This document shows, in pieces, positions 3,344-4,955 of a stretch of 38,768 bases of DNA. This DNA comes from a virus. The position numbers were made by a program, and so were the translations under genes. The first letter of the stretch is position 1; each line of letters starts with the position of its first letter. The notes beneath the pieces are model-generated. The model saw only the letters and a program-made list of their open reading frames with translations, was not told where the DNA came from and made no database searches. The stretch spans positions 1-38,768 of IMG/VR virus record IMGVR_UViG_3300042924_002131; one strand, written 5' to 3'.

Positions 3344-3403
3344 GAATTCTTAATAGGCGACTATCCCCCGTCCATATCCGCGGGGTCTAGTCTTTAAGAA
3401 TTC
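3344..3403. repeat. Compound inverted repeat
   Basis: The outer arms GAATTCTTAA (3344-3353) and TTAAGAATTC (3394-3403) are perfect 10-base complements. Inside lie GACTA/TAGTC and CCCCG/CGGGG arms closing on a short loop near 3373. The result is a long stem with internal bulges, able to form on either strand. There is no U-run after it in either direction, so it is not a simple terminator. Possible roles are an origin or cruciform, a protein-binding site, or one domain of a structured RNA. Confidence 0.6.
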
Positions 3404-3588
3404 GGGCTATGAATTAGGGGAAGTGGTTTAACTTTCAACTACTTACACCCTCTTGAATTGTCGACAAATCGACAGAGACAACAGGGGAACAGGTTCCGCG
3501 GGTGTGATGTAACTCACAGGACATTGACCACTAATGACCAGATTTGGGGTTGACTTACGCTCAAAAGTCTGGGAGATTTAAGTCATAA

Positions 3589-3602
3589 GGGGAACACGCC
3601 CC
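3589..3602 (+). promoter_or_regulatory. Leader hairpin just upstream of the first early gene
   Basis: GGGG-AACACG-CCCC forms a 4-bp GC stem, followed at once by GAAGACAGGAGA, the ribosome-binding site of the gene at 3621. The same hairpin type recurs at 3838-3851 (GGGC-AACACC-GCCC) and 4597-4608 (GGG-AACAAT-CCC), each a few bases before the same extended Shine-Dalgarno sequence. The shared loop AACA suggests a conserved leader element rather than chance. Confidence 0.5.
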
Positions 3603-3620
3603 GAAGACAGGAGAAACAAG

Positions 3621-3779
3621 ATGAAGAAGTTCACAGTATCGTTTAAGGTAGAAGTACAAGAGGGCGAAACAGTAAATTTTGAGTACTTCCTAAAAGACCT
3701 CTTGGAGACCTCAACTCTCCCCGCCTTATCGGCTAACCTCGTGCCTCTTAGTATGCAGGTGAAGAACTCTAGGAACTAA
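3621..3779 (+). CDS. Hypothetical 52-residue protein, first early gene
   Basis: The short ORF MKKFTVSFKVEVQEGETVNF... ends in SMQVKNSRN. A strong ribosome-binding site (GACAGGAGA) lies 7-8 bases before the ATG. The alternating hydrophobic/polar start suggests beta-strands; no known family is recognised. It is the first gene rightward from the structured divergent region and is followed directly by a tRNA-like minihelix (3788-3833), so it may be expressed separately from the genes after it. Function unknown. Confidence 0.65.
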   Translation: MKKFTVSFKVEVQEGETVNFEYFLKDLLETSTLPALSANLVPLSMQVKNSRN

Positions 3780-3787
3780 GCAAGGCA

Positions 3788-3833
3788 GCCCCCCGCCCGT
3801 ATCGACGGCGTAGGTTCACGACCTACGGGGGGC
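3788..3833 (+). ncRNA. tRNA-like minihelix element 1 (acceptor stem plus T-arm)
   Basis: A 7-bp perfect stem GCCCCCC (3788-3794) / GGGGGGC (3827-3833) is entered directly by a T-arm-like hairpin: GTAGG (3810-3814), loop TTCACGA, CCTAC (3822-3826), with no bases between T-arm and acceptor strand, exactly as in tRNA. The remaining 15 bases contain a small CCGT-ATCG-ACGG hairpin in place of the D and anticodon arms. AC follows the stem. An alternative CGCC/GGCG pairing (3794-3797 with 3807-3810) would disrupt the acceptor. At 46 nt it is not a functional tRNA. It lies in the leader of the gene at 3875. Confidence 0.55.
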
Positions 3834-3874
3834 ACAAGGGCAACACCGCCCGATTAAGACAGGAGACGCAACTA

Positions 3875-4042
3875 ATGACACCAACAGGACTAGCACTAAA
3901 GGTCACCAACAAGGACGGGCGCGAATCTTTCCCGTGTTACGAGGCTTTTGGGTGGGACAAGGTGAACCAGATAATCGCCAACACCCTAGAAATTGAGCAC
4001 GTTCTAAAGGTTGAAATCGTAGACATTAACGTCCTACGATAG
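3875..4042 (+). CDS. Hypothetical 55-residue protein
   Basis: The ORF starts MTPTGLALKVTNKDGRESFP and ends in EHVLKVEIVDINVLR. It has a clear GACAGGAGA site 8 bases before the ATG and a tRNA-like element plus a GC hairpin in its leader. The predicted strand-helix-strand pattern (LKVTNKDG, WDKVNQIIANTLEI, VLKVEIVDI) looks like a small compact fold. No family recognised. It is bounded on both sides by tRNA-like elements, so its mRNA could be a separate processed unit. Confidence 0.65.
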   Translation: MTPTGLALKVTNKDGRESFPCYEAFGWDKVNQIIANTLEIEHVLKVEIVDINVLR

Positions 4043-4049
4043 GACAACA

Positions 4050-4090
4050 GCCCCCGCCTAGCGGGTACGGGTTCACAATCCGACGGGGGC
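4050..4090 (+). ncRNA. tRNA-like minihelix element 2 (acceptor stem plus T-arm)
   Basis: A 7-bp perfect stem GCCCCCG (4050-4056) / CGGGGGC (4084-4090) directly abuts a 17-nt T-arm-like hairpin (4067-4083) with four pairs (C-G, G-C, G-C, G-U), one A-A mismatch at the base and the 7-nt loop TTCACAA. Only about 10 bases replace the D/anticodon arms. An alternative perfect CCCGC/GCGGG hairpin (4053-4057 with 4061-4065) competes with the acceptor stem. AC follows the stem, as in elements 1 and 3. A 7-bp hairpin (4095-4101/4106-4112) then precedes the ribosome-binding site of 4143. Confidence 0.55.
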
Positions 4091-4142
4091 ACTAGGTAGG
4101 CGAATGCTTACCTTGCAAGACCCAAGACAGGAGAATAAAAGA

Positions 4143-4310
4143 ATGGCGAAATATTTCGAAATCGGTTTGGATAAGTTCGGGTTTTACATTGAGACCCGCT
4201 TAGTAGACCTATACATAGACAATAGAGGGCTAGCCCTAGGCGTCGCCGTAATCGTAGCCCTACGAGTTCGTAAGGTTCTAAAGACTCGCAAGGGGGCTAA
4301 GAATGCTTAA
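4143..4310 (+). CDS. Small single-span membrane protein
   Basis: The 55-residue protein starts MAKYFEIGLDKFGFYIETRL, followed by a hydrophobic span LALGVAVIVAL at about residues 30-40 and a strongly basic tail (RVRKVLKTRKGAKNA). The layout predicts one membrane helix with a cytoplasmic basic C-terminus. The start at 4143 is chosen because GACAGGAGA lies 8 bases upstream; a longer frame from 4104 would run through the leader hairpin and is rejected. It overlaps the next gene by 8 bases. Role unknown; early phage membrane peptides often act on the host envelope or in exclusion (inference). Confidence 0.65.
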   Translation: MAKYFEIGLDKFGFYIETRLVDLYIDNRGLALGVAVIVALRVRKVLKTRKGAKNA

Positions 4311-4527
4311 GTTCTACATTCTAAAGCGCGACGAGTGGGAAGACAAAGACTCCCACGCTATCGTTCAATTCGAGACAGTTGCAGACCTTGAGGCTTATCT
4401 CTCTTATAATCGCGCTTATATTAAGGAGATGAAGACACTCGACGAGGACACGACTTACTCATTCGGGCATTCAACTCTTGAGACAGTAGCCGACGACGTA
4501 CCGAACAGATTCGCTAACATAGTTTAA
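4303..4527 (+). CDS. Hypothetical acidic 74-residue protein
   Basis: The ORF starts MLKFYILKRDEWEDKDSHAI and is rich in Asp and Glu. Its ATG overlaps the end of the preceding gene, with AGGGGG upstream serving as ribosome-binding site, so translation is probably coupled. The pattern strand, helix (VADLEAYLSYNRAYIKEMKTL), then a flexible end suggests a small globular protein. No family recognised. It is followed by the third tRNA-like element. Confidence 0.65.
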   Translation: MLKFYILKRDEWEDKDSHAIVQFETVADLEAYLSYNRAYIKEMKTLDEDTTYSFGHSTLETVADDVPNRFANIV

Positions 4528-4546
4528 AAATGTGAGGCAACTCACC

Positions 4547-4594
4547 GCCCCGCACACTTTACAGAGTGCGAATAGTTCGAGACTATAGCGGGGC
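4547..4594 (+). ncRNA. tRNA-like minihelix element 3 (acceptor stem plus T-arm)
   Basis: A 7-bp perfect stem GCCCCGC (4547-4553) / GCGGGGC (4588-4594) abuts a T-arm-like hairpin (4571-4587) with four A-U/G-C pairs, one A-A mismatch and the loop TTCGAGA, close to the tRNA T-loop consensus. In between, CACT/AGTG (4555-4558/4565-4568) forms a small hairpin. An alternative perfect CGCAC/GTGCG pairing (4551-4555 with 4666-type arm at 4566-4570) would break the acceptor stem. AC follows the stem. It precedes a GGG-AACAAT-CCC hairpin and the GACAGGAGA site of the gene at 4632. Confidence 0.6.
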
Positions 4595-4631
4595 ACGGGA
4601 ACAATCCCACAAACGACAGGAGAACACAGAA

Positions 4632-4955
4632 ATGCCAGCACTAAACCAGAAAGACGCGGAGCACTACATAGCAAAACGCAGACAATTCACAGCATCAGCT
4701 TTGCGCGGTGATTACTGTAAAGGGTGGGTACCTGATGCGGGACGTCTAAACGCTGAAGAGTACGCAAAACTAGACCAAGCAGCCCGTTACGATTCAGAGT
4801 GGGTCTATGTAGTTTGGTCATATGACACCCCAATCGCTTGGCACGACTCAGAGGGCTGGTATGTAGTCGCGCAGAAGTTCAGCCAGACAACAAGCAAGCA
4901 CCAAAACCTAACCCGCCGCGCTATTGCCGAGAGTTTAGAGGGGGCGACAGTATGA
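4632..4955 (+). CDS. Hypothetical 107-residue protein
   Basis: The start at 4632 (MPALNQKDAEHYIAKRRQFT) has GACAGGAGA 8-9 bases upstream, so the longer open frame reaching into the tRNA-like element is rejected. The protein is rich in Trp and Tyr (YDSEWVYVVWSYDTPIAWHDSEGWYVV), with two beta-strand-like repeats of a W-Y-V-V pattern, then a polar helical end. From memory it resembles small phage proteins of unknown function from actinobacterial phages, but I cannot name a family. Its stop overlaps the next start (ATGA). Confidence 0.7.
   Translation: MPALNQKDAEHYIAKRRQFTASALRGDYCKGWVPDAGRLNAEEYAKLDQAARYDSEWVYVVWSYDTPIAWHDSEGWYVVAQKFSQTTSKHQNLTRRAIAESLEGATV

Follow-up and report, generated by a model that had tools for sequence, protein, structure and literature searches.

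What purpose do the three small tRNA-like structures serve that stand between neighboring genes next to a phage terminase gene, and which machinery might read them? The window, i.e., the whole stretch of DNA analyzed here, comprises the 38,768 bp of an IMG/VR virus record. Its nearest named relatives are the Planktophila phages E7 and F5 (OX376640/1; terminase identity 97%), whose host, strain LanE-43 of 'Ca. Planktophila', belongs to the freshwater order Nanopelagicales (PMC10202952), and genes for a WhiB-type factor and a sigma factor are shared between the window and these phages. The three elements are located between small rightward genes directly upstream of the divergently oriented terminase gene, and the gene layout suggests that this array belongs to an early operon. 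A CRP/GlxR-type dyad, TGTGATGTAACTCACA, at window positions 3503-3518 precedes a probable early promoter (TTGACT near 3551), and its conservation extends to the relatives L001 and L002.

A preceding sequence-only reading had placed the elements at 3788-3833, 4050-4090 and 4547-4594 on the + strand. These positions are all exact, and a search of both strands for a perfect 7-bp stem joined to a T-arm-like hairpin with a TTC loop returned these three sites as the only matches in the window. As had been described, each element is followed by AC, a second hairpin and the ribosome-binding motif GACAGGAGA (Table 1), and the stem sequences differ within the window (P1 being GCCCCCC, GCCCCCG and GCCCCGC) while the shape stays the same. 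Two details had to be revised: the 10-17 bases in place of the D and anticodon arms are not an unstructured spacer but form a covarying hairpin (P2), and the 5-bp T-stem assigned to elements 2 and 3 actually consists of four pairs plus an A-A mismatch. Element 2 does show the proposed alternative pairing at the expense of the acceptor stem (CCCGC-CTA-GCGGG), which the orthologs of this element in L001 and L002 have lost, so that the pairing does not represent a conserved switch. Compared with dinucleotide shuffles, elements 1, 2 and 3 together with their downstream hairpins gave z-scores of -4.6, -2.6 and -5.2, respectively, with 0 out of 200 shuffles folding as well in each of the three cases. 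ARAGORN detected no tRNA in the window and there was no match to the Rfam tRNA family (RF00005); Rfam searches at gathering as well as relaxed thresholds (E up to 5) yielded no relevant family match.

Table 1. Window coordinates of the three elements, their flanking hairpins and the ribosome-binding sites that follow them.
Feature	Position	Strand	Remarks
P4-type hairpin GGGG-AACACG-CCCC in the leader of the array's first gene (ATG 3621)	3589-3602	+	Direct from sequence
Element 1, P1 5′ strand GCCCCCC, acceptor-like	3788-3794	+	Pairs with 3827-3833
Element 1, P2 hairpin, D-arm position	3795-3809	+	Family covariation of P2; MFE fold
Element 1, P3 T-arm-like hairpin GTAGG-TTCACGA-CCTAC	3810-3826	+	
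Element 1, P1 3′ strand GGGGGGC, then A73 C74	3827-3835	+	
P4 hairpin GGGC-AACACC-GCCC, 3′ of element 1	3838-3851	+	
Translation start region: ribosome-binding site GACAGGAG plus ATG 3875 (55-aa gene downstream of element 1)	3858-3877	+	
Element 2	4050-4092	+	P1 4050-4056/4084-4090, P2 region 4057-4066
Element 2, P3 (loop TTCACAA); A73 C74	4067-4083; 4091-4092	+	
P4 hairpin AGGTAGGC-GAAT-GCTTACCT, 3′ of element 2	4094-4113	+	
Translation start region: ribosome-binding site GACAGGAG plus ATG 4143 (small membrane-type gene downstream of element 2)	4126-4145	+	
P0 hairpin GTGAG-GCAA-CTCAC (GNRA loop), directly 5′ of element 3	4532-4545	+	
Element 3	4547-4596	+	P1 4547-4553/4588-4594, P2 4555-4568 (loop TTACAG)
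Element 3, P3 (loop TTCGAGA); A73 C74	4572-4586; 4595-4596	+	
P4 hairpin GGGA-ACAA-TCCC, 3′ of element 3	4597-4608	+	
Translation start region: ribosome-binding site GACAGGAG plus ATG 4632 (downstream of element 3)	4615-4634	+	

Relatives were sampled as 80 loci found via terminase homology and 60 further contigs found via two T-arm patterns. A covariance model built from 16 copies of one class (R1) recovered element 1, which was not among its seeds, with an E-value of 2.4e-6, and gave 74 matches in the terminase-homology loci and 88 in the T-arm-pattern contigs. With a broader model (R2) applied to the whole window record, elements 1, 2 and 3 were found at E-values of 2.7e-7, 6.6e-5 and 4.4e-9, respectively, and nothing beyond these three; on whole records, R2 identified 62 copies in 29 out of 36. 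Altogether, about 100 distinct copies are present in relatives, namely IMG/VR records, the two Planktophila phages and one prophage. Phage E7 (OX376640.1) carries three of them on the - strand, at 1385-1434, 1751-1794 and 2161-2208. Each record contains one to four copies, always on one strand and spanning 0.3-1.6 kb (median 0.8 kb). Three matches (L111, L119 and L135) were discarded as false positives, being 32 nt long, lacking P2 and apparently representing coding sequence. Pattern matches in bacterial genome contigs were mostly due to chance, with one real copy in Frigoribacterium, and a screen of 396 genomes across the host phylum plus 300 genomes of Microbacteriaceae under stricter filters yielded no match except this known one. 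A single match in approximately 700 actinobacterial genomes, in an already known carrier, implies that the family is essentially restricted to phages. Searches with the covariance model against the phages Adephagia, TM4, phiC31, FlowerPower, Kumquat, Appa, Megan, Dardanus, Hendrix and Margaery gave no match, which is a weak negative, and BLAST searches with single elements against named phages returned chance matches only, the one in Pharb being intergenic but without the fold. Some close relatives lack the element. One of them, L026, has no model matches but carries P0-like hairpins before two genes (- strand, 5100-5000 and 4450-4360), with other or decayed structures 3′ of them, which suggests that the element was lost or replaced here.

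Alignment of 98 distinct copies revealed a three-way junction as the fold of the family. It consists of the acceptor-like P1 (7 bp, with the ends GCC/GGC), the small hairpin P2 (about 4 bp, the loop often being TGACAG, TGACG or a small loop with G as its last base) and the T-arm-like P3 (about 4 bp with a 7-nt loop). In most copies P3 is separated from P1 by an unpaired A. A lack of compensatory covariation in related phages had been named beforehand as a refuting outcome; the result was the opposite, with P1, P2 and P3 all covarying strongly. Among the 98 rows, 96.1% of the cells show standard pairing vs. 69.7% after shuffling, 372 cells are compensatory with both sides changed vs. 113 after shuffling, and 13 of the 15 pairs contain double changes, with the alignment being fitted to the model and related rows not counting as independent events. 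Sliding the register by one to three columns lowers the pairing to 34-54% and destroys the signal. The RNA shapes are clearly real and conserved. G-U pairs (47 cells) outnumber A-C mismatches (16 cells), which indicates that the mRNA-sense strand is the one that folds. The last base of the P2 loop is G in 89 of 98 copies, and both partners of a possible D-loop/T-loop contact hardly vary. In one element (L095:7495-7578) the P2 arm is enlarged to about 40 nt with P1 and the P3 loop being kept, so that P2 appears to tolerate insertions. In class-3 elements, e.g., L077:1379-1427, the P2 loop of many copies reads TTGACA, which is the sequence of a -35 hexamer; a conserved -10 hexamer is missing.

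The context of the elements is intergenic and independent of particular genes. In 111 out of 130 cases the distance from the end of an upstream open reading frame (30 codons or more) to the element is 6-39 nt, and the next start codon mostly lies 31-60 nt beyond the element; the products encoded downstream form 44 sequence clusters and share no common gene function. A hairpin (P0) ends at most 3 nt from G1 in 63 of 118 contexts (shuffled: 6.4), often with the sequence TGTGAx-GNAA-xTCACA, and another one (P4) starts at most 6 nt after C74 in 64 of 114 contexts (shuffled: 12.5). Since P0 of many elements belongs to the same motif family as the TGTGATGTAACTCACA dyad, it might double as an operator. 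An internal promoter acting at the DNA level could combine such a CRP/GlxR-type operator (TGTGA-N6-TCACA, matched by P0 of many copies) with the TTGACA of the class-3 P2 loops as -35 region and AC as start. This explanation appears very improbable, as no -10 hexamer with more than 4/6 matches occurs in 84 copies, TTGACA is absent from the other classes and the P0 centers are mostly GNAA on the sense strand. Moreover, the P1 sequences differ between copies within one genome, which argues against a DNA-binding inverted repeat, since no one protein could read all of them.

The GC-rich flanking hairpins, with their frequencies far above those of the shuffled controls, would also suit the idea that P0, P1-P3 and P4 form a stack of mRNA stabilizers or weak terminators/attenuators without any enzyme-specific recognition, and terminators without U-tails have been described in the actinophage phiC31. 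We regard this as improbable: no T-run follows the elements on the + strand, so that the pattern of an intrinsic terminator is not present, and a three-way junction, invariant loop bases and the AC would be superfluous for a terminator; the missing model match in phiC31 points in the same direction, again as a weak negative. A second possibility raised by two adjacent hairpins, here P3/P1 and P4 lying few bases apart in an early region, is a folded RNA acting in cis on the RNA polymerase. The put antiterminator RNA of phage HK022 is of this kind, comprising two adjacent hairpins in early phage RNA. Put differs from the elements, which occur in several copies per operon, each tied to an individual gene start instead of one near the promoter, and which carry tRNA-like features that antitermination leaves unaccounted for, making this reading very unlikely too. 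Before the first gene of the array, the P4-type hairpin and the ribosome-binding site are present without a minihelix, as would be expected if the minihelix were needed only where the 5′ end does not stem from initiation.

To avoid circularity in judging the likeness to tRNA, a plain descriptor was used in which the bases flanking P1 were free and the distance from the loop to the end of P1 could vary within 10-14. For the 42 distinct descriptor matches standing before a ribosome-binding site and start codon, the 3′ strand from the loop to the end of the helix measured 12 nt in 40 cases and 11 nt in two, position 73 was A in 40 and G in two, and position 74 was C in all 42, whereas descriptor matches without a gene start gave scattered values. 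In a separate count, R73 and C74 were present in 121 out of 121 elements; C75 is not conserved. In tRNA, the T-loop lies 12 bp away from the cleavage site, a distance that bacterial RNase P is believed to gauge, and the GGU loop of this enzyme forms base pairs with R73-C74-C75 (PMC11143913). In the P3 loop, which had been called T-loop-like, the length of 7 nt holds for 97 of 98 aligned copies, U54 and U55 occur in 72 and 76 of 97 loops with G at position 55 in the remainder (K55 in 97/97), C56 and R57 are invariant (97/97 each) and the closing pair G53-C61 is found in 87/98. The loop hence retains two of the bases that form the core of the tRNA elbow. A58, however, is present in only 35/97, so that a strict T-loop is not what is conserved, and G59, for which tRNA offers no reason, occurs in 93/97.

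For comparison, 57 tRNA genes from four actinobacterial genomes encode C74 in 57/57 and CCA in 48/57, and all five phage tRNAs examined have C74. Genes for tRNA-Trp, tRNA-Arg and tRNA-Ser are located directly 5′ of the terminase gene in different relatives (L031:5802-5873; L048 and L049 near the terminase start), all ending with G73-C74 and lacking the full CCA. The combination of C74 with a free C75 makes the elements resemble the CCA-less subset of tRNA genes, and C74 alone is possibly the conserved RNase P determinant in the sampled actinobacteria. Still, several observations speak against a reading by RNase P. Without a conserved C75 only part of the RCCA contact can be formed, A58 is important for RNase P binding and yet rare in these loops in which G59 is conserved, and some close relatives do without the element altogether. 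Position -1 is A or C and never U or G in 102 unique elements (this count being the sole basis, as the -1 filter of the descriptor excluded Watson-Crick pairs with N73), while U is the commonest -1 base of the 57 tRNA genes (27/57). A different endonuclease might be considered instead, i.e., RNase III, or RNase Z cutting after A73, alone or together with RNase P. Operon punctuation would follow the same logic as in the early region of phage T7, and A73-C74 is the site of tRNA 3′ processing. A stack of 12 bp is short for RNase III, though, which requires neither the loop bases nor R73-C74, and this option appears highly unlikely.

A further line of evidence comes from orthologous sites. The small gene after element 2 has homologs in other phages (E-value 2e-7 in pairwise BLASTP), and the elements before these homologs have covarying stems, are always followed by RC and carry the loops TTCACAA, TTCATAA, CTCACAC, CTCGCAA, TGCGAGT and the canonical TTCAATT. 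The latter occurs in L040 and L213 on a GCAGG/CCTGC stem, with the acceptor GCTCAC/GTGAGC and then GC, and L038 and L041 of the same lineage have TGCGAGT loops on GCTGG/CCAGC and GCAAG/CTTGC stems. A further class (L017, L125, L130, L136 and L139) shares the same anatomy and contains a canonical tRNA T-arm (GTGG-TTCRATT-CCAC). Equivalent sites thus hold canonical loops in some phages and non-canonical ones in others. In L040, which lacks the element of the model, the palindrome GGTCGGCYAGCCGACC is repeated between several early genes (about 3400-4750, - strand) and is perhaps another intergenic punctuation device. Together, the 12-nt register, R73-C74, the invariant C56 and R57 and the canonical T-arm at an orthologous site lend the tRNA-mimic reading independent support, and the earlier interpretation as a whole is partly supported.

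The main rival is a phage or host RNA-binding protein that reads the P3 loop with its KCRNG core on the junction and controls translation or stability of the downstream message, the likeness to tRNA arising incidentally from one helical turn capped by a 7-nt loop. Such a protein would account for C56, R57 and G59 being near-invariant beyond the needs of a T-loop while A58 is free, and for the position of the element directly before ribosome-binding sites. It leaves unexplained, however, why R73-C74 outside the helices is invariant, why the 12-nt register is so strict and why a canonical tRNA T-loop can take the place of the usual loop at an orthologous site; moreover, the 44 downstream clusters have no function in common. 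We therefore consider it unlikely, even though the stabilizer/terminator, the RNase III/RNase Z, the put-like and the internal promoter explanations are all less likely still.

That the elements are processing sites of the host RNase P separating early mRNAs is a proposal to which we assign an even chance. It builds on what was observed directly: the structure is conserved and has the geometry of tRNA, its intergenic placement does not depend on the genes, the family is essentially confined to phages, and canonical T-loops take part in natural exchanges. RNase P is known to cut acceptor/T-arm hairpins, the C4 and M3 RNAs of phages and certain polycistronic mRNAs (PMC11143913). The elements would sit between small genes on what is probably a single polycistronic early transcript, and host RNase P would recognize the 12-bp stack by the loop at one end and R73-C74 at the other. 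A cut 5′ of G1 would split off the upstream message, in many cases with the P0 hairpin closing it at the stop codon. The downstream message would carry the P1 and P4 hairpins close to its 5′ end, with the extended ribosome-binding site behind them, and the separation might affect mRNA stability or relative expression. In its broader form, this proposal sees a phage-specific multi-copy family of half-tRNA mimics, exchanged among phages and replaceable by real tRNA T-loops, which hand the early polycistron over to RNase P; this could hold or fail with about equal probability.

Structured sites that punctuate polycistronic RNA are known from other systems. The early region of phage T7 contains RNase III sites, and mitochondrial transcripts are punctuated by tRNAs. 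Both resemble the elements, provided that these are cut, in being structured intergenic sites of a polycistron, and differ from them in fold and presumably in enzyme. Repeats placed at gene starts are likewise known: the SAS/ESAS sequences of Cluster K mycobacteriophages accompany a gene-start motif before a subset of unrelated non-structural genes (PMC3203893), and like these the elements are repeated upstream of a conserved motif at gene starts. The copies in Adephagia, however, are inverted repeats of the TTGACATGCATACAG type, i.e., DNA-type, and the element model has no match in Adephagia and TM4. Homology to ESAS was rejected, as a 17-bp inverted repeat with the 13-bp SAS GGGATAGGAGCCC was not found and the motif of the window is GACAGGAGA. 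With canonical tRNA (RF00005) the elements share the length of acceptor plus T-stem, G53-C61, C56, R57, R73-C74 and, in some family members, TTCRATT loops, whereas the anticodon arm is missing and A58 is free.

RNase P substrates, too, are among the closest known systems. The minihelix substrates of this enzyme have the 12-bp acceptor/T-type stack, the 7-nt loop and a purine at position 73 followed by C74 in common with the elements, and natural substrates (P1/P7 C4 antisense RNA, phi80 M3 RNA, T4 gene 32 and polycistronic E. coli mRNAs; PMC11143913) share the phage or mRNA context. In contrast to these, the elements form a covarying multi-copy family of putative cleavage sites in phage operons, with a P2 hairpin and without C75. 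A non-exhaustive search of the open literature turned up no account of a family like this one, which is a phage RNA family absent from Rfam, with tRNA-like elements in mRNA being already known as a kind. If the proposal is true, it would describe a bacterial virus in which tRNA mimics punctuate operons irrespective of the genes involved, and provide a testable handle on early gene expression in phages of 'Ca. Nanopelagicales', which are among the most abundant freshwater bacteria. About 100 natural minimal substrates varying in loop, register and 3′ end would then constitute a catalog for the true requirements of RNase P. Non-tRNA substrates of RNase P have so far been known singly, and a repeated, covarying intergenic family would mean that phages use the tRNA-processing enzyme as a general mRNA splitter.
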